A stretch of 34,807 bases of DNA from the NCBI GenBank assembly GCA_028287865.1, contig JAQBOU010000097.1, forward strand, positions 1 through 34,807. Reading direction: 5' to 3'. Below the pieces are notes generated by a model that was given only the letters and a program-made list of their open reading frames with translations, had not been told where the DNA came from and ran no database searches. A program made the translations under genes and the position numbers. This stretch comes from Mucilaginibacter sp. (lineage in GTDB: Bacteria; Bacteroidota; Bacteroidia; Sphingobacteriales; Sphingobacteriaceae). Shown here piece by piece: positions 5,271 to 31,898 of the stretch. Within the stretch, counting starts at the first letter, position 1. The number at the start of each line of letters is the position of its first letter.

Positions 5271-6251
5271 TCAATCCGCCTTCTTCAGCTCCTCCTGGAT
5301 TTTGGTTTTAGATAGCGGGATATAACCATTTTCGTCAACAAATTTTTGGCCTGCTGTTAATACGTATTTCACAAATTCTACCAGCTCTTTTTTCTTTGGC
5401 TTTCCCTTAAATAAAAAGCCAAGATTACGGGCCGGGGGCGAGGGATACTTTCCTTCGCCTATTGCAGTGGTTAATTCATCAATGGTGGCATAGAAATTTT
5501 CATTGGCATCGATTTTACCATTGCCATTCACATCAATTGGCAGCGCATGCACACCGGCAACCGGCTTGCGTGTTTTCAGATCATACAAGTATGCCAGATT
5601 GTTATAACCGATGGCCGCCGGATCTTTTTTAACTGCCTGCGCTAAACCGGGATCGCCAAAAACACCTACTCCAAGCAGGTCTTCCTGTTTTTTACCAAAA
5701 TATTTAGCCCAGGTTTCTCCGGCGCCGGCAGCATCTGAGCGGGTGTAAACATGTATGGGTACAGCCGCTTTGCCTGCTACCTGCTTCCAGTTTTTTATAC
5801 TGCCGGTTACAAAAATGTTCAGGAATTGGTCTTTTTTAACGCCTTTTGCAAGTATTTCTGACGCATCAGGATTCCCGGTATTAAATGTTTGCACCATCGC
5901 ATCCTTTGTCACATAGATAGTATAAGCGCCTTTTTTTACTTCCGAAGGATCAATATCCCTTGAGGCCAATCCGATATCAACCAAGCCCGATAAGGCATCG
6001 GTTATCCCTTTACCGGCACCACCTGCCGAAATATTAAACTTAACATTTGGATGCAGTTTTTTAAACTCATCGGCCCATTTTACGGTGATAGGGTATAAAG
6101 CAAAGGCACCTGAGATACTTATTGTCCCTTCAAGGTCATCCGCAGGAATCATATTAGTCTTGTGCCCGACAAATGATGAAGTAATTAATAACACACCTGA
6201 AACAGCTATTACTGCTATAAGTGATCTGGGTTTTAATATTTTTTTTATCAT
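5271..6251 (-). CDS. pstS: phosphate ABC transporter substrate-binding protein
   Basis: Periplasmic phosphate receptor delivering phosphate to PstCA. It has 326 residues: a hydrophobic N-terminal signal (about 10-30, no lipobox Cys), then a PBP-like domain with the binding loops ISGAFALYPITVKW (about 46-59), ISAGGAGKGITDALSG (74-89) and SRDIDPSE, and the TRSDAAGAGETW segment. Near the C-terminus, residues 240-251 (DVNGNGKIDANE) match an EF-hand calcium loop, which is not a generic PstS feature. The gene starts 10 bp after the porin gene ends, so both belong to one operon. Confidence 0.93.
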   Translation of the reverse strand: MIKKILKPRSLIAVIAVSGVLLITSSFVGHKTNMIPADDLEGTISISGAFALYPITVKWADEFKKLHPNVKFNISAGGAGKGITDALSGLVDIGLASRDIDPSEVKKGAYTIYVTKDAMVQTFNTGNPDASEILAKGVKKDQFLNIFVTGSIKNWKQVAGKAAVPIHVYTRSDAAGAGETWAKYFGKKQEDLLGVGVFGDPGLAQAVKKDPAAIGYNNLAYLYDLKTRKPVAGVHALPIDVNGNGKIDANENFYATIDELTTAIGEGKYPSPPARNLGFLFKGKPKKKELVEFVKYVLTAGQKFVDENGYIPLSKTKIQEELKKAD

Positions 6252-6261
6252 CCTGTTTTAT

Positions 6262-7398
6262 TTAAAAAGTCAATTGTAATTGAGCCTCAAAAATGTTGTT
6301 TTTAACCTGGGTAACTGCTTCACGGCGGTCGAGGTAATCAATTGCTAACCTTGCCCATGCATTAAAGAAGTAATTAACCCCACCTGTATAATAGTTGGTG
6401 CGAACGTTTGCCGTAACCTGGTTAGGGTCATAGGTATCGTATTTTGCGGCAAGCTGTAGTTTTTTGGGGATCACAAAATAGGTGGCCTGGCCATACCAGC
6501 CATCTCTTTTAATGATGCCGTCTGTGCCTTTATCATATTCAGCCTGTAAAGCGAGGCCGCCTATTACATACCTGGCATCAAAACCAACCCGGTTACGTTT
6601 TTGGTTTTTTGCCGGTGTACCATAATTACCTTGCCCGTTATAAAAATCACCGGATATAGTAAGGTCCCTAACAGGATGAACGCTAAACCGCCCCACTATA
6701 TCTTTATGGTTATTGTTATCAGTGGTTACATCATACCCTGCACCGTTAAAAATACCCAGGGTATAATCAAACAGGTACCTGCCGTCCACCTTTGCAAAGC
6801 TGCCATTTACCTGGATGCCAATGTCACGTCCATTCTGATTGCCAATTACATCTGACGATCTTCCGGAAAGCGCATTAACCACCTGTGAGCGGTCAATAAA
6901 GTCAAGTTGACTATCCGCAATCAGGCTTTCGAGCGAGTAGGGGACTTTGAACTGCCCCGCCGTGAACTTTAAATAATCAGCTATTTTATAAGTGGTATAA
7001 GCATCCAGCAGCTTAGTAGTTCCGGCAAATTCAGTATATACTTCATAATTCCAGTTGTCATTAATATCCCCTTTTACATCAAGGCGGGCACGGTGAAGGA
7101 GGAATGTGTTATTTACACCGGTTTGCTGAAATCCCTCATATTCTGTTTGGATCAAACCGCTTATTTGTAAAGCCCTGCTGCCTATGGTTATACCATGCTG
7201 ATTTTCCTTTTCTTTATCTTTTTTTGCCTGTTCTTTTACGGCCTGGTCTGCGCGGATTGAATCGGCTTCCCGCTCCGTCAAAACGTTCTTTTTAATAAGC
7301 AGGTTTAAAAGGTCTTCATTTTGTTGCGCTTTTGAAGTAAAAGCAGCGAAAAGTATAGCCAATACAATGGCCGTTCTGATTATGTAAGGTAATTTCAT
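6262..7398 (-). CDS. OprO/OprP-type (phosphate-selective) outer-membrane porin
   Basis: Outer-membrane beta-barrel of 378 residues heading the phosphate operon. It has a signal peptide ending TSKAQ at residue 25, then a charged, probably coiled N-terminal segment (LLNLLIKKNVLTEREADSI through a KEQAKKDKEKE stretch). Alternating barrel strands such as GLIQTEYEGF, FTAGQFKVPYSLESL and GVNYFFNAWARLAIDY follow, and it ends in LQLTF. The pattern fits the OprO/P porin family. Its place directly upstream of pstS supports phosphate as cargo, although the family also includes pyrophosphate and polyphosphate channels. The likely operon promoter lies in 7399-7680. Confidence 0.85.
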   Translation of the reverse strand: MKLPYIIRTAIVLAILFAAFTSKAQQNEDLLNLLIKKNVLTEREADSIRADQAVKEQAKKDKEKENQHGITIGSRALQISGLIQTEYEGFQQTGVNNTFLLHRARLDVKGDINDNWNYEVYTEFAGTTKLLDAYTTYKIADYLKFTAGQFKVPYSLESLIADSQLDFIDRSQVVNALSGRSSDVIGNQNGRDIGIQVNGSFAKVDGRYLFDYTLGIFNGAGYDVTTDNNNHKDIVGRFSVHPVRDLTISGDFYNGQGNYGTPAKNQKRNRVGFDARYVIGGLALQAEYDKGTDGIIKRDGWYGQATYFVIPKKLQLAAKYDTYDPNQVTANVRTNYYTGGVNYFFNAWARLAIDYLDRREAVTQVKNNIFEAQLQLTF

Positions 7399-7742: not shown

Positions 7743-8822
7743 TTATATTTCATCTCCCTGTTTGATCTCATCCGAGGCATGCAACAAGATTTTATCATCC
7801 GGTTTAAGGTCGCCGAATACTTCTGTCGAGTCCTTGCTTGTCAATCCTTCTTTAATATTAACCAGGTTAGCTTTACCGTTTCTTACAGTGACAACATATT
7901 CTTTTTCGGTAGACCTGACAATGGCTGAGTTTGGCACCAGCAAAGATTTTGCTCCCGAAACCATCGGTATTTTCACTTCGGCGTACATGCCGGGTTTCAA
8001 TTGCCCGCTTTTGTTTGCCACATCAATTTCGATAGCTTCCTGCCGCATGCTGCCCAAAGCATTTGCCGAACGGCTTATTTTGGCAGTATGCGCCTGTCCG
8101 GGCATCGCATTAAAAGTAAAGGTGACAGGCTGATTCAGGTCTACCTTATCTACATAATCTTCAGGAATATAAACGGTAAGGCGCATTTTATTTATGTCCT
8201 GTATAATCAACATTGGCTGGTCGGTTTCTTTCCCTGGTGCTACCAATGCGCCCGGAGAAACGTTTCTTTGGACTATCATTCCATCAAAAGGAGCGTAGAT
8301 GCGCAGGTATCCCTGCATTGTTCTTACTGCATCTACATTTGAATGCTCGGATTGTGCCATTGCCAGATCTGCTTTCATTTTAGAATTTGCATTGTCAAGG
8401 TCCAGCGGTGATACAGATCCCGGCTCTTTAGCGGCTTCCTTAAGGCGTTCATATTTTTCTTTGCTGGCCTCGGCGTTTTCCTGCGATTGTATATAACGGG
8501 AATTGGCCGCCTGCAATTGCGACTCCATTTCAGGCGCTTCCAATGTCATCAGTAACTGACCCTTTTTTACAATAGAGCCGCGGTCAACAAATAATTGCTT
8601 TACAAACCCGTTTACCTTTGGGAAAAGGTTTACTTCATTAAAGGGAACTAACTGTCCCGGCAAATTGGCTGAACTTGATAATGCCTTTTCAGAAACAGTA
8701 CCAAATTCATATTTACCGGTATTTTTCTTCGATTGGCCGGTTAAATCAACCGGTTTCTGATTTCCTGAACAGGCTGCAAACAAGCCGGTTACGGCTAATA
8801 ACAAATAAGATCTATATTTCAT
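7743..8822 (-). CDS. RND efflux periplasmic adaptor lipoprotein (HlyD/MFP family)
   Basis: Membrane-fusion protein that bridges the RND permease and the outer-membrane factor. It has 359 residues and a lipoprotein signal with lipobox LFAAC (Cys18). A lipoyl-like half-motif follows (GFVKQLFVDRGSIVKKGQLL), then an alpha-hairpin of about residues 103-170 rich in Gln, Ala and Glu, then the second lipoyl half (LRIYAPFDGMIVQRNVSPG) and beta-barrel and membrane-proximal domains. Its ATG lies inside the end of the RND gene (11-bp overlap), indicating co-translation. The substrate cannot be read from sequence. Confidence 0.92.
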   Translation of the reverse strand: MKYRSYLLLAVTGLFAACSGNQKPVDLTGQSKKNTGKYEFGTVSEKALSSSANLPGQLVPFNEVNLFPKVNGFVKQLFVDRGSIVKKGQLLMTLEAPEMESQLQAANSRYIQSQENAEASKEKYERLKEAAKEPGSVSPLDLDNANSKMKADLAMAQSEHSNVDAVRTMQGYLRIYAPFDGMIVQRNVSPGALVAPGKETDQPMLIIQDINKMRLTVYIPEDYVDKVDLNQPVTFTFNAMPGQAHTAKISRSANALGSMRQEAIEIDVANKSGQLKPGMYAEVKIPMVSGAKSLLVPNSAIVRSTEKEYVVTVRNGKANLVNIKEGLTSKDSTEVFGDLKPDDKILLHASDEIKQGDEI

Positions 8823-11800
8823 GGTGTTGGATATTTAAATTGGTGGTTTTGGTTGATTCTTCCGGCATTAATGATGGTTCGTCGTAGGTTGTTTTATTTT
8901 GTACCCAGGCAAATACCATAGGCAGTATAAACAAGGCAGCAAGCGTTGACGCAAACAGGCCGCCGATAACTGCGCGGCCAAGTGGGGCGGATTGTTCGCC
9001 AGCCTCACCCATGCCCGAAGCCATCGGGATCATCCCGGCAATCATTGCCAAGCTTGTCATCAGGATTGGCCGTAAACGGATAGAGGCACTGGTAATTGCA
9101 GCTTTGGTGGAATCCCTGAACTCCAGCCGCAATTTTTCAGCGTTGGTTACGATCAGTATAGCATTTGCTACCGATACCCCCGTTGACATGATCATACCCA
9201 TGTACGACTGCAGGTTGAGTGTGGAACCTGTTATTAATAGGGCGGTTATTGAACCTAATATTACGGCCGGGATAGTTACCAGTACCGTTAACGATACTTT
9301 AAAGGATTGATAGTTTGCGGCCAGCAATAAGAATATTACCAGGATTGCAAACGCCAACCCGTTTTGCAGGCTGGTTAGCGTCTCAGTTAAAAGACCTGAC
9401 ATACCGCCAATTTCTGCAATTAAGCCTTTGGGAGGGGCACCTATGGATTGCACCGCATTCTGAACAGCAGTAGTAGCCGAACCAAGATCCTTTTTATAAA
9501 TATTTGCGCTTACCGTGATAAAACGCCGGGGACCGGTGCGGTCATACTCGCCGGGAGCTGTAGTTATTTTAAAAGTGGCAACATCTGCAAGGGTAGGGCT
9601 GCTTTGGCCTTTTAAAAGAGGTATCTCCTTCAGCTCATCCATATTATCCATCACATACTCAGGTACCTGGGCCTGTACCTGGTAGGTATAAGCATTTTTC
9701 TCATCCAGCCATAAATTTTTTAGTGTAAACCGGCTGGAGGAGGTACTTGCCGTTACGGAACGTGCAATATCACTTACATTTAATCCTAATTGCGATACTT
9801 TTAAACGGTCGAGCGTGATGGCAATTACCGGGTAATCCAAAGGCTGATTTATTTGCACGTCGCGCAGGTAGGGAATTTGTTTCAGTTTCCCTAAAACCTT
9901 GTACGCGTAAGTTTTTATCTGCTGCAGATCCTTACCTGCCACCTGAACTTCTATGGGCGTATTGGCGCCCTGGCTCATGATCTTTTCAGTCATGTCGATA
10001 GGTTCAAAAGTAATTGACATTTCGGGTAGCTCATGGGCTATGTTTTTTCGCAGCGCATCCTTTAACTCGTCCATATTAACCTTATAATTTTCGTCAAGGT
10101 TTACCTGTAAAACGGCCTCGTGTGTGCCGGTATTAAAAACGTACAGGTTGCTGCTTCCAAAACTGCTGGGCACTAAACCAATATAGCCGGATGTGATTTT
10201 CACATGGTTATTTACGGTCTGGTCTATAATGTGCAATACCTGTTTAAATTTGTCTTCCGTACGTTCCAATCTTGTGCCCTGGGGTTCTTTTAAGCGGATC
10301 TGGAACTGGCCGTTATTGAGTTTTGGCATCATATCTTTACCAATAACAACAAATCCAATACCGGCCAATACAATTACCACAACCAGGTAAGTGAGTACGT
10401 ACAGTTTTTTACGCGGCATTAAGCGCTTTATAATTTTTATAAACCGCTGTTTAACTTTTTCAAAAAGATCGTTTTCTTCAGGATGCTCTTCTTCCTGCTG
10501 CTGGTGCATATTCACCTGACCTTCCTCATAGCTATCCATTGATTCCCCTGCATGGGCATGTACTTTGCCGTGGTGATAAGTTTGATAGCGCTCTGCTTTT
10601 ATCATCCAGTTGCTTAATATGGGCACCAGGGTTTGAGCAATAATGAAAGAAACGATCATGGTTAAGCCGATTGACATCGACAACGGTAAAAACATCGCCT
10701 TTGGCACACCATTCATCATAAAGGATGGAGCAAAAACGGCCAGGATACATAATAATATCAGTAACAGGGGAAACGAAATTTCCTCGCAGGCATCATAAAT
10801 AGCCAGCCGTTTGGATTTTCCCATTTCCAGGTGCTGGTGGATGTTTTCGATGGTCACCGTTGCCTGATCGACGAGGATGCCAATAGCCAGCGCCAGCCCG
10901 CTCAATGTCATAATGTTTATGGTTTGCCCAAATAAGCTAAGCAAAAGTACCCCGATTAATATGGATACCGGAATAGTGATCACCACAATTAAACTGCTGC
11001 GCCAGTCGCGCAAAAATAACAATACCATTAACCCGGTTAATATCGCGCCAAGGCCGCCTTCGGTCATTAAGCTTTTTACAGCGTTTACCACAAACACTGA
11101 TTGGTCAAATTCATAGGAGATTTTTACATCATTTGGCAACAGGCTTTGCATTTCGGGCAGCTTACTTTTTAAATTTTGAACCACTGTCCAAGTTGATGCC
11201 GAAGCCGTTTTTACCACCGGAATATAAACAGAACGTTTGCCATTGATGAGTGCATAATCCACTGTAACATCGGCTGCATCGGTAACCCTTGCTATATCCT
11301 TCACATAAATCGGCACTCCATTTTTGGTGATCACCGGAATATTGCCAAAGTTTTCGGAGTTTTTAATCAAGGTATTCATAGTGGTTAGATACATGGTATT
11401 GCCAACCCTGAGGTTACCTGACGGCGACATCACATTGTATTTTGACAATGCTTCAACCACCTCATCAGGGGTAAGGTTAAAGCTTCTCAATTTATTCGGA
11501 TCAATACTAAAAACAATTGTTCTGGCATTTGACCCAAACGGCGGCGGGGCAGACAGGCCCGGTATAGTTGAAAACATCGGCCGGATGCGGGTGGCGGCCA
11601 GGTCATAAATGTCTTTCAAATTTTCACTTTTACTATCCAAAACCAGTTCTCCCACCGGCAGGGATGAAGCATCGTACCTGATCACCTGCGGAGGTAAAGC
11701 ACCTGGAGGAAAAAAGCTTTGCGCCCTGTTAACCTGCAGGGCTACCTGGGCCGAAGCTTCGGCCATATTGGTAGTTTCGTAAAACGATATTTTAACGATT

Positions 11801-15787: not shown

Positions 15788-15880
15788 AAAAATTCCTCCC
15801 AGTGAAGGGGTGCGGTTGACAGTGAAGTAGCAGGGGAGGGGTTTCGCAGCGAATGCCCGCTGAGTAGTTTCCAGAAAATT
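15788..15880. repeat. left direct repeat flanking element E1
   Basis: About 93 bp, matched by 16075-16167 with small indels. The central stretch TGCGGTTGACAGTGAAGTAG is identical in the two copies, and similarity continues through TTTCGC, AATGCC and TTTCCA. It ends exactly where element E1 begins. Confidence 0.8.
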
Positions 15881-16060
15881 CCCGCCCGTTCAAGTGTCCA
15901 CACTTGAATGCAAAAAGTTTAAGCATCCACGCTTAAATTATTAACTATTTCTAAAGAGCGTTCAGATTCGCACCGATATATCAAAATTTGCAATGCATGT
16001 TTTTGACGTAAGCGTGGACGCTTACAATTTCAGGTGTCCAAGTGTAGACACTTGAACAGG
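15881..16060 (-). repeat. nested-palindrome element E1
   Basis: Four hairpins in mirror order: TTCAAGTGTCCACACTTGAA (15889-15908), TTTAAGCATCCACGCTTAAA (15918-15937), a core of about 70 bp, GTAAGCGTGGACGCTTAC (16008-16025) and CAAGTGTAGACACTTG (16039-16054). The left margin CCCGCCCGTTCAAG equals the reverse complement of the right margin of E2 apart from one base, and the right margin matches the left margin of E2, so E1 is the inverted counterpart of E2. Strand is given relative to E2. The cores are unrelated. Confidence 0.8.
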
Positions 16061-16074
16061 CGATGGTTGCCGCT

Positions 16075-16167
16075 AAAATTCCCTCCCAAGGGAGGGGTGC
16101 GGTTGACAGTGAAGTAGCAGGGAGGGGTTTCGCCGGCCAATGCCTGCTAATCAATTTCCAAAAGAAT
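16075..16167. repeat. right direct repeat flanking element E1
   Basis: Second copy of the 15788-15880 repeat. It opens with the small hairpin CCTCCCAAGGGAGG, of which the left copy keeps a decayed version. The 26 bases beginning GGGGTGCGGTTGAC are identical to the left copy. Confidence 0.8.
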
Positions 16168-27844: not shown

Positions 27845-30442
27845 ATGAATGCAGAACAATCAAGATTAAAAGATTCAACCTGGAAAAAATGGGGGCCTTA
27901 TGTAAGCGACCGTCAATGGGGAACTGTTAGGGAGGATTACAGCGCCAACGGTGATGCCTGGAACTACATAACCCATGATATGGCCCGCAGCAAAGCCTAT
28001 CGCTGGGGCGAAGAAGGCATTGCCGGGATCTGCGACAACGAGCAATTGCTTTGTTTTGCGGTGGCATTTTGGAATAAAAAGGATCCTATTATCAAAGAAC
28101 GCTACTTCGGCCTCAGCAACCCCGAGGGCAACCATGGCGAGGATGTTAAAGAGCTATATTATTACCTTGATAATACGCCCACCCATTCGTACCAGAAAAT
28201 GCTGTATAAATATCCGCAAAACGAATATCCGTATGAGTGGCTGGTCGACGAAAATAAAAGACGGAGCCGTAACGACCCGGAATTTGAATTAATAGATACA
28301 GGCTTGCTCGACCAGGACGCTTATTTTGATATTTTTATCGAATACGTAAAAAACACACAGCAGGACATATTAATAAAGATCACCGTTAATAACAGGGGAG
28401 GTGAGGACGCCGCATTAAATGTATTGCCAACCTTATGGTTTCGTAATACCTGGGTATGGGGTTATGATAATTTTACCCCTCAATTAAGTGACGGTTCGCA
28501 CGGCGTAATTGAGATCTATCATAAAGACCTTGGTCAGTTTTATTTAAACACCGAAGGCTCGCCGGAGATACTGTTTTGTGACAACGAAACAAATACCAAA
28601 CAGCTTTATGATTATAACGATGGCAGGCAATTTTGTAAAGATGGCATCAATGACCATGTTGTTCATGGCGCGGATACCATCAACCAAAAAAAAACCGGGA
28701 CAAAGGCAAGCGTTAATTTTGATATAAATGTACCGGCAAAGCAAAGTGTTACGCTTCGTCTGAGGCTTTCACAGGATGCAGGGAATGGTTTTGATGATTT
28801 CGATAAGCTATTTGATGCCCGTAAGCAGGAAGCCGACCAATTTTATGCTGATCTGCAAAAAGGCAATAACGATACCGACCGCCGTATGGTACAGCGCCAG
28901 GCTTTCGCAGGTATGTTGTGGAGCAAACAGTTCTATTATTATGATGTAAGGCACTGGATCAACGGTGATCCGGCCGAACCTGCGCCTCCTGCCGAAAGGT
29001 TATTTACCAGGAACAGCAAATGGACACATTTAAATACAAAGGACGTTATTTCGATGCCTGATAAATGGGAATATCCCTGGTTCGCCTCCTGGGACCTGGC
29101 TTTTCATTGTTTGCCGCTTGCCTCACTGGATATGGCCTTTGCAAAAAATCAGCTCACGCTGCTCATCAGGGACTGGTATATGCATCCTAACGGGCAACTG
29201 CCGGCTTATGAGTGGGATTTTAGTGATGCAAATCCTCCTGTGCATGCCATGGTAACCTGGAAAATTTATCAGAAGGATAAAGAAGCCAACGGGGGTAAAG
29301 GGGATACCTATTTTTTAGAGCGCATTTTCCATAAGTTGATGCTCAATTTTACGTGGTGGGTAAACCGTAAGGATGCAGCAGGGAATAATATTTTTGAAGG
29401 GGGTTTTTTAGGGCTGGATAACATAGGCGTATTTGACCGCAATGCAAAACTGCCTCTGGGTGAACGCCTGGAGCAGGCCGACGGCACCAGCTGGATGGCC
29501 ATGTATTCTTTAAACCTGTTGCGTATTGCCGCAGAGCTGGCTGTAACCAACAAGGCCTACAATGATATTGCCAGTAAGTTCTTCGAACATTTTATTTACA
29601 TTTCGGGTGCGTTATCGAATCTTGGACAAAATAAGGAAGGTCTTTGGGACGATACAGATGGCTTTTTTTACGACCAGTTGCGCTTGCCCGATAACAGTAC
29701 TGAGAAAATGCGGGTTAGGAGCCTGGTTGGTTTAATCCCTTTGTTTGCTGCCGAAGTGCTGGATGATGACGATATAACCAACAACCCTATCTTTAGAGAC
29801 CGCATGACCTGGTTTGCCGAAAATCGTCCAGATCTTGCTTTGCTGGTGTCACGCTGGGCAGAAACCAAGGGAACGGGTAAGCACCTCATCAGTTTGTTAC
29901 GGGGCTACCGCATGAAATCCCTGCTTAAATATATGCTGGACGAAAATGAGTTTTTAAGTCCTTATGGGATTCGCTCGGTTTCAAAATATCATTTAAATAA
30001 TCCTTATCAGGTTAAAGTGGATGGCATGGAGTTCAGTATAAAATATACCCCTGCCGAAAGTGACAGCGGTTTATTTGGCGGCAACAGTAACTGGCGCGGC
30101 CCTATATGGATGCCCATGAACTTTTTACTGATCGAAAGCCTGCAAAAATTTCATGAGTATTACGGCGATGACTATAAAATTGAATGCCCTACAGGTTCGG
30201 GTGTTTTCATGAATATGCAGCAGGTTGCGGAGGAATTGTACCGGCGCGTGTCTAATATATTTTTGCGGGATAAAGACGGTAAAAGGGCAGTATTCGGCAA
30301 TTACGCCAAGCTGCAAAACGACCCCAACTTTAAAGATTATATATTGTTTTATGAATATTTTGATGGGGATAACGGCCGCGGGGTAGGCGCCTCCCATCAA
30401 ACAGGGTGGACAGGGTTGATAGCTAACTGCTTGCATCAGTAA
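27845..30442 (+). CDS. GH63/MGH1-type glycoside hydrolase (alpha-glucosidase-like)
   Basis: 865-residue cytoplasmic-looking protein (no signal peptide). The N-terminal domain opens with KKWGPYVSDRQWGTVREDYS and DAWNYITHDMARSKAYRWGE, typical of this family. The (alpha/alpha)6 catalytic part includes WFASWDLAFHCLPL, GQLPAYEWDFSDANPPVHA, RLEQADGTSWMAMYSL and WRGPIWMPMNFLLIESL. Family members act on alpha-glucosides such as glucosylglycerate or mannosylglycerate relatives; the substrate here is undefined. The last six codons and the hairpin downstream are duplicated 363 bp further on, around element E2. It starts 48 bp after the dipeptidase gene, but no functional link is evident. Confidence 0.88.
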   Translation: MNAEQSRLKDSTWKKWGPYVSDRQWGTVREDYSANGDAWNYITHDMARSKAYRWGEEGIAGICDNEQLLCFAVAFWNKKDPIIKERYFGLSNPEGNHGEDVKELYYYLDNTPTHSYQKMLYKYPQNEYPYEWLVDENKRRSRNDPEFELIDTGLLDQDAYFDIFIEYVKNTQQDILIKITVNNRGGEDAALNVLPTLWFRNTWVWGYDNFTPQLSDGSHGVIEIYHKDLGQFYLNTEGSPEILFCDNETNTKQLYDYNDGRQFCKDGINDHVVHGADTINQKKTGTKASVNFDINVPAKQSVTLRLRLSQDAGNGFDDFDKLFDARKQEADQFYADLQKGNNDTDRRMVQRQAFAGMLWSKQFYYYDVRHWINGDPAEPAPPAERLFTRNSKWTHLNTKDVISMPDKWEYPWFASWDLAFHCLPLASLDMAFAKNQLTLLIRDWYMHPNGQLPAYEWDFSDANPPVHAMVTWKIYQKDKEANGGKGDTYFLERIFHKLMLNFTWWVNRKDAAGNNIFEGGFLGLDNIGVFDRNAKLPLGERLEQADGTSWMAMYSLNLLRIAAELAVTNKAYNDIASKFFEHFIYISGALSNLGQNKEGLWDDTDGFFYDQLRLPDNSTEKMRVRSLVGLIPLFAAEVLDDDDITNNPIFRDRMTWFAENRPDLALLVSRWAETKGTGKHLISLLRGYRMKSLLKYMLDENEFLSPYGIRSVSKYHLNNPYQVKVDGMEFSIKYTPAESDSGLFGGNSNWRGPIWMPMNFLLIESLQKFHEYYGDDYKIECPTGSGVFMNMQQVAEELYRRVSNIFLRDKDGKRAVFGNYAKLQNDPNFKDYILFYEYFDGDNGRGVGASHQTGWTGLIANCLHQ

Positions 30443-30496
30443 TCAAAAACCTGTTGTGAAGAAAGATTTCCGAAGTTTTTGAAACTTCGGAAATCT
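30422..30496. repeat. direct repeat copy A: GH63 gene tail plus hairpin
   Basis: 75 bp including the codons for ANCLHQ, the stop codon and a perfect hairpin with 15-bp arms (AGATTTCCGAAGTTT and its complement) around a 3-base TTG loop. Copy B lies at 30785-30859, with eight mismatches and no indels. Confidence 0.9.
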
Positions 30497-30784
30497 AAAT
30501 TGCCTGTTCAAGTGTCTACACTTGAACCTTCTTCACCTCGTAATTCCTATATTGCCCGTTCAAGTGTTCACACTTGAACGTCTAAAATTTTAAGCGTCCA
30601 CGCTTAAATCAAAATAGCCATTGTTAATTCACAATAAAAATCCCATATTTATTTCATGTCACGCAACGCCTCAACGACGAACTTTAGCGCAAATCCGGAA
30701 AGCCCATTAAAAATAATTAGTTAATTTAAGCGTGCACGCTTAAAAAAAATTACATTCAAGTGTGGACACTTGAATGGGCGGGTT
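30497..30784 (+). repeat. nested-palindrome element E2
   Basis: Hairpins in mirror order: an extra outer one (30506-30527), outer left GTTCAAGTGTTCACACTTGA at 30558, inner left TTTAAGCGTCCACGCTTAAA (30589-30608), a core of about 115 bp, inner right TTTAAGCGTGCACGCTTAAA (30725-30744, fully self-complementary) and outer right TTCAAGTGTGGACACTTGAA (30755-30774). It fills exactly the space between direct repeat copies A and B. Orientation is opposite to E1. No ORF in the core. Confidence 0.82.
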
Positions 30785-30859
30785 GCTAACTGCTTGCATC
30801 AATAATCAAAAACCTGTCCTGAAGAGAGATTTTCGAAGTTTCAAAAACTTCGGAAATCT
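30785..30859. repeat. direct repeat copy B: duplicated GH63 gene tail plus hairpin
   Basis: Second copy of 30422-30496. It keeps the codons for ANCLHQ and a stop (CATCAATAA) although it is far outside the gene. Its hairpin loop is CAA where copy A has TTG, the reverse complement. Confidence 0.9.
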
Positions 30860-30922
30860 GAAGCCGTAAATCTCTTAATGTGTTAAATTGACACAATAAA
30901 ATTTCTTTTTCTCCTTTTATTC

Positions 30923-30965: not shown

Positions 30966-31898
30966 ATGAATTTCAGCAGGCGTAAGTTTTTGCAAAGTAC
31001 CGGTACACTGGCACTTGGCAGTTTGGCTTTTTCAGGAAAAGCCGGTTCTCTTTTTAATTCAGCGGAGCTGCACCCGGTTGGTTTGCAGCTTTTTACATTT
31101 TTTGGGGTGATAGATGATGATGTAAAAGGTACCTTAAGCCGCATCGCGGCTATCGGTTACAAAGAACTGGAATCGGCATTCAGCAAAAAGGGTGGTTATT
31201 ATGGCATGAAACCAAAGGAATTCAAGGCCATGGTGAATGACCTGGGGATGTCGTGGAAATCGCATCACGTATTGGGTGCGCCGTTTAAATTGCCCAAAGG
31301 CTATAAAATGCCGCTCGGCACTGATGGCAAACCGATGGTGATACCACAAAAGATGGCTAACCTGCAGGATAATATGCAGCAATTGGTAGATGAAGCTGCC
31401 GCAGGCGGTATTAAATACCTGGTTTGTGCTAATGCGCCTACCGGCACGCTTGAAGAGATCAAAACCACTGTTGAAACGTTAAACAAAACCGGCGAAGCAG
31501 CAAAGAAAGTTGGGATACAGTTTGCTTACCACAACCACGACATGGAATTTCATGAAGTGGAGGGTAAAATTCCGTACCATTTGCTGCTGAAAGAAACAGA
31601 TGCGAAAAATGTAAAGATGGAGCTCGACCTGGCATGGGCTGTTAAAGGTGGTCATGACCCCGTAGAAATATTTAAAGCTTATCCCGGCCGTTTCCCGTTG
31701 TGGCATGTAAAGGATTTGGATGCCAGCCATAACGATATATTACCTGTGGGCAGGGGGACTATCGATTTTAAAAGAATATTCGAGAATAAAGCAATTGCCG
31801 GAATGCAGCATTTCTTTGTTGAGCATGACATGCCTAAGGATGCTTATGCAAGTGCTAAAAGCAGCTTTGAGTATCTTACCAAAACCCTTAAGGCCTGA
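30966..31898 (+). CDS. Tat-exported sugar phosphate isomerase/epimerase (TIM barrel)
   Basis: 310 residues of the xylose-isomerase-like TIM-barrel superfamily. The N-terminus MNFSRRKFLQSTGTLALGSL is a twin-arginine signal (SRRKFLQ), so the folded protein should reach the periplasm. Barrel strands bearing metal or substrate ligands are PVGLQLFTFF, YHNHDMEFHE, MELDLAWAVKGG, LWHVKDLD and FFVEHDMPKD. Family members have been tied to 3-keto-sugar metabolism in Bacteroidetes, which would link it with the DUF1080 protein, also exported; this is inference. The gene stands alone behind the E2 repeat region. Confidence 0.87.
   Translation: MNFSRRKFLQSTGTLALGSLAFSGKAGSLFNSAELHPVGLQLFTFFGVIDDDVKGTLSRIAAIGYKELESAFSKKGGYYGMKPKEFKAMVNDLGMSWKSHHVLGAPFKLPKGYKMPLGTDGKPMVIPQKMANLQDNMQQLVDEAAAGGIKYLVCANAPTGTLEEIKTTVETLNKTGEAAKKVGIQFAYHNHDMEFHEVEGKIPYHLLLKETDAKNVKMELDLAWAVKGGHDPVEIFKAYPGRFPLWHVKDLDASHNDILPVGRGTIDFKRIFENKAIAGMQHFFVEHDMPKDAYASAKSSFEYLTKTLKA

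Follow-up and report, generated by a model that had tools for sequence, protein, structure and literature searches.

The repeated gene end and its surroundings

The window, that is, the whole stretch of DNA analysed here, comprises 34,807 nucleotides of a genome of the genus Mucilaginibacter; genome-wide counts for this source genome are from sequence searches. On its plus strand, an ORF at 27845-30442 codes for a GH63-like glycoside hydrolase of 865 amino acids (Pfam MGH1-like_GH, 8.8e-24; Glyco_hydro_63, 2.1e-10), and it is the 3' end of this gene that is duplicated. Copy A (30413-30499, plus strand) consists of the final codons, the stop codon and a hairpin downstream, while copy B (30780-30862, plus strand) is a gene tail plus hairpin with no gene attached. 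The whole gap between them is taken up by E2 (30500-30779), which abuts A and B within 0-2 nt. A xylose isomerase-like TIM-barrel gene follows downstream (30966-31898, plus strand) and served as the anchor of the orthologue comparison.

A sequence-only reading of the window had described the repeat as 75 bp at an offset of 363 bp, with eight mismatches and no indels. The duplication is real and the offset is correct, as the repeat search returned a direct repeat of 87 nt (30413-30499 and 30776-30862) with a spacing of 363 and 85% ungapped identity. The extent has to be revised, however: the best gap-free stretch (30422-30499 and 30785-30862) covers 78 nt with 9 mismatches (88%), which places the overall identity at 85-88%, and the fuller match includes a 4-nt gap. 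When this gap (ATAG in A, absent in B) is allowed, the match runs outward, on direct reading, to GGGTTG, and copy B then starts at 30780, the next base after the end of E2 (GGGC, 30779). In a whole-genome search the long match was found at these two positions only (E = 1.4e-22), and the comparison of one flank with the other gave a score of 111, the maximum among 200 shuffles being 26. The repeat is no assembly echo or artefact, given the divergence of about 12% between copies A and B.

The hairpin of copy A, AGATTTCCGAAGTTT...AAACTTCGGAAATCT (30464-30496, unstranded), has a perfect 15-bp stem and the loop TTG. That of copy B (30827-30859, unstranded) carries the loop CAA and, at 97%, matches the hairpin of copy A more closely in inverted than in direct orientation. 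This portion of the repeat, of about 33 bp, is itself a dispersed terminator-like repeat with about a dozen further places in the source genome (G000), and a 34-bp copy of it, 97% identical, is present in a genome of another family (G043:C53:101764-101797).

The comparison of both copies with orthologues, suggested in the sequence-only reading, has been carried out. Copy A is in frame and has retained ATAG as in the closest relative, RYN_329, while B lacks it, so that A is the ancestral and B the derived copy. As a scar, copy B has no coding function.

Element E2 and the RAYT family of Mucilaginibacter

The view that E2 fills the space between the gene tails holds insofar as the copies bound it, but this space is composite, being made up of a REP hairpin (30502-30527, plus strand), 26 nt, and the element proper (30554-30779, plus strand). 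When 7 nt of flank are included, the extra left-end hairpin repeats 30547-30579 in tandem, as a 33-nt copy of 88% identity with a period of 52. The termini of the element are inverted pairs of 20-bp palindromes, the outer one being TTCAAGYGTNNACRCTTGAA after GCC and the inner one TTTAAGCGTNNACGCTTAAA. The left double palindrome (30559-30608, plus strand) reads TTCAAGTGTTCACACTTGAA at 30559-30578 and TTTAAGCGTCCACGCTTAAA at 30589-30608; the right one (30725-30774, minus strand), with its palindromes at 30725-30744 and 30755-30774, is inverted relative to the left. Sequence and fold prediction agree on two REP palindromes in inverted orientation that form a long hairpin, as is characteristic of REPINs, and folding of E2 as single-stranded DNA is predicted to be far above that of shuffles (z = -8.9).

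The ends of the E2 type also bracket units of 650-680 bp (about 670 bp), seven of which with the same ends were found to code for a 173-amino acid protein. In profile searches this protein matches Y1_Tnp and NF047646, the REP-associated tyrosine transposase (RAYT) family, scoring 91 bits (cutoff 80) with the REP-associated family versus 22.5 bits (cutoff 55) with the IS200 family; the profile-based family assignment is clear. The source genome has its own full RAYT unit on contig C165, so that there is a cognate RAYT gene with these same hairpins at either end, as in REPIN/BIME systems. E2 proper is collinear with both ends of the seven units, but about 450 bp from their central part are missing. 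In its relic mini-ORF, MSRNASTTNFSANPESPLKIIS with stop codon (30656-30724, plus strand), the beginning of the RAYT reading frame is fused in frame to its end. On these sequence features, E2 is a non-autonomous REPIN/MITE of the Mucilaginibacter RAYT family that originated from a RAYT unit by internal deletion. The exact end pattern occurs in 42 of the 121 genomes of the genus, and the reversed control pattern in none; family copies are multiple and dispersed across the genus, and few in the source genome.

A literature search on REP elements in Mucilaginibacter yielded nothing relevant. In P. fluorescens SBW25, REPINs are small, RAYT-linked mobile units made up of two inverted REP hairpins (Bertels and Rainey 2011, PMC3116915). 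E2 resembles them in its inverted REP hairpins, in its RAYT linkage and in the duplication that includes a flank; it differs in having two palindromes per end and in being an internal-deletion derivative which retains the RAYT coding ends. The tetranucleotide GTAG/GTGG of the SBW25 REPINs is also not present at the hairpin foot of E2, which is GCC, but that motif is canonical in certain subclasses only, and the Bacteroidetes subclass 2.6 is without it (PMC6006769). Subclasses 2.6 and 2.4 of TnpA-REP are reported mainly or abundantly in Bacteroidetes (PMC6006769). The Mucilaginibacter RAYT has in common with them its occurrence in Bacteroidota, atypical flanking secondary structures and copies elsewhere in the genome. 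Like IS200/IS605-type elements and their MITEs, it has a Y1 (HUH) transposase as well as derivatives that lost internal sequence and conserved their ends, whereas the better score as a REP-associated protein and the long flank repeats, which are not an IS200/IS605 feature, set it apart. By most features, the system not only works like a RAYT/REPIN family but is one.

Several further arrangements were encountered among the RAYT units of the genus. At one orthologous locus, a RAYT unit is present in several species (L061 in G004, L106 in G103, L100 in G028), its orientation being opposite in L061 versus L106, and shorter family elements take its place in L111 (G009) and L134 (G008); this suggests inversion and shrinkage of the unit in place. 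Within 5 kb at L051 (G010:C2), four RAYT-unit deletion derivatives of about 220 bp, 94-97% alike, are found at 5423-5648, 6547-6773, 8423-8656 and 9474-9687, at intervals of about 1-2 kb that contain small ORFs; the cluster is a recent local expansion. Double-foot REPs, in which a single palindrome has the GCC foot on both sides (G009:C39:8455-8484, G123:C3:239502-239531, G026:C1:561127-561156), are as expected after central deletion of an inverted REP pair.

Gene tails in relatives and flank repeats in the genus

The orthologue comparison covered 36 named relatives in which the GH63 tail lies no more than 2.5 kb upstream of the TIM-barrel gene. A second gene tail is absent in all 36, and the duplication bounded by E2, as had been read from the window, was seen in the source genome only; nor was an element box recognisable in these relatives with up to 3 mismatches. 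Seven adjacent loci that were read agree with this result. A weak second-tail match of 21 bp in L222 was judged to be chance.

RYN_329 (G163), the relative nearest to the source genome with about 91% at the TIM gene, carries a single tail and, beside the TIM gene, a decayed remnant of the E2 family, namely three decayed half-REPs directly upstream of the conserved pre-TIM region. By this locus, an element was probably present before the tail was duplicated. The remnant may be an independent insertion, since it is too decayed to prove the same insertion as E2; and, as the divergence between A and B (about 12%) is close to that from RYN_329, the sequence of steps is read from a single decayed locus. 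In RYN_329 alone, a START-domain gene separates the GH63-like gene from the TIM-barrel gene (L190, 2066-2791, minus strand); it was rejected as ancestral content, being in no other relative tested.

A second element of the family lies in the window (15884-16061; a REPIN with its RAYT sense on the minus strand), between the flank copies F1 (15788-15876, plus strand), which is derived, and F2 (16075-16163, plus strand), which is ancestral. The two copies of this local repeat are 84% identical and the only full ones in the genome. At this site RYN_329 has the right copy alone and no element.

The generality of such repeats was surveyed on 72 elements of the genus with flanks of 120 bp, a flank repeat being defined by a score of 24 or more. 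Flank repeats were found at 12 of the 72 elements, as compared with 2 of 216 shifted controls and with 9 of 416 cross pairs from the same genome (p = 4e-6). In view of this significant excess over controls, some kind of link exists between E2 and the duplication. The remaining 60 elements are without a flanking direct repeat, from which it follows that insertion does not normally create one, and a long target duplication as a rule of the family was rejected on this count. Repeats arise near elements, not as a rule upon insertion, and the comparison with related genomes suggests that DNA next to E2-type elements tends to be duplicated onto their other side. The lengths of the repeats vary from about 20 to 174, and their distances from the element ends from 0 to 41 nt. 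Long, local flank repeats are those of the two window sites and of L054 (G015), where a complete flank-element-flank-element tandem is preserved (322 bp, 92%, period 341). L145 (G107) and L139 (G089) have an orthologous element in common, the flank repeat being in L145 alone. As to the quality of single cases, the repeat at L099 was rejected as a local duplication because it is dispersed, with about 46 matches across that genome; L086 consists of two unrelated ends paired by the script; and some short repeats (L145, L146) sit in low-complexity sequence. Segments present in L123 (G123:C2) and missing from L095 (G026) lie on both sides of the element and resemble inverted copies of each other, and thus inverted flank duplications may also occur; the species behind these two genomes are about 95% alike at such loci.

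Origin of the duplication

The explanation favoured for the GH63 site, with a probability of roughly 0.55, is a local tandem duplication of flank and element, with the distal element lost afterwards. The element would first have settled downstream of the GH63 gene. Then the 87-bp flank and the element, a unit of 363 bp, would have been copied in tandem to give flank-element-flank-element, either through hairpin-associated slippage or template switching or through single-strand cutting by the RAYT; that hairpin slippage or RAYT nicking was the driver is inferred. The distal element would eventually have been lost by excision or hairpin bypass, to leave flank-element-flank.

Such a course would be consistent with the single tail of all 36 relatives, and with the decayed element and one tail of RYN_329. 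Flank repeats are enriched at elements yet absent at most of them. The complete tandem of L054 and the pair L145/L139, in which the element is shared and the flank repeat is not, would likewise fit. Read in the RAYT sense, both window sites carry the ancestral flank 5' and its copy 3' of the element, and L054 has the same order; although these are three cases only, a unit composed of 5' flank and element would give just this order. A further parallel is offered by SBW25, where REPIN clusters are tandem repeats with flanks (5' flank, REPIN, short second flank) and where REPIN excision was observed in population sequencing of P. fluorescens (PMC3116915). At the GH63 site, unlike in those clusters, the distal element is missing and the flank copy alone remains, so that the site holds no tandem of two or more flank-plus-REPIN units. 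No second element after copy B and no recognisable excision scar were found there, which speaks against the favoured course, as do the possibility that the remnant in RYN_329 was inserted independently and the A-B divergence close to that from RYN_329. A further point against it is that both full MITE elements of the source genome show the arrangement flank-element-flank (2/2), which exceeds the expectation from the family rate. Tandem copying and subsequent loss probably acted at the second element of the window, too. The inverted hairpin loop of copy B and the opposite orientations at L061 and L106 indicate that hairpin sites also rearrange in other ways.

The sequence-only reading had considered that the arrival of E2 and the duplication were one event, in which insertion itself would have made a long target duplication of about 85-95 bp, for example by filling in of widely spaced single-strand nicks. 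Copies A and B do abut both ends of E2, and the second window element has the same layout, its site in RYN_329 showing a single flank copy and no element. This is nevertheless unlikely in view of the 60 elements without a repeat, the varying lengths and distances of the others, and the separation of element and flank repeat in L145/L139. Single-strand transposition of the IS200/IS605 type, moreover, is not known to cause target duplication. An element with a single tail had been named as the case that would separate the two events, and RYN_329 provides it at the level of the family, its remnant not being provably E2. Still less probable is the general form of this idea, that RAYT-linked REPIN insertion itself produces long target duplications whose length varies (about 20-170 bp). 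If true, a long target duplication would be an undescribed outcome for a single-strand (HUH) transposase, with the two elements of the window as recent examples; most insertions of the family lack the abutting repeat of fixed length by which such a transposon would be recognised.

It is similarly improbable that the flank was duplicated in tandem first and the element inserted between the copies later. Short unrelated spacers separate element and repeat at several loci, which would fit insertion of the element into a spacer, but no relative has two tails without an element, and insertion exactly at the junction of the GH63 site would be a coincidence. The poorest prospect is a single template switch at a replication fork that stalled at the E2 hairpin, recopied the flank and skipped the folded element without a full tandem ever existing: the strong hairpin, the inverted loop in copy B, a short GGG common to the junction and other small rearrangements at the locus, such as the period-52 REP copy, would suit it, but it is hard to tell from tandem copying and loss by sequence alone, and L054 is proof that complete tandems form.

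Summarizing, tandem REPIN arrays that include flanks are already published (PMC3116915); new here are a further member of the family, a derivative that clearly arose by deletion, and flank-repeat counts with controls. A RAYT/REPIN family is thereby described in Mucilaginibacter, and the origin of one small element is shown by its fused RAYT relic. REPIN loci would then be hotspots of local duplication, able to copy gene ends and terminator-like hairpins.
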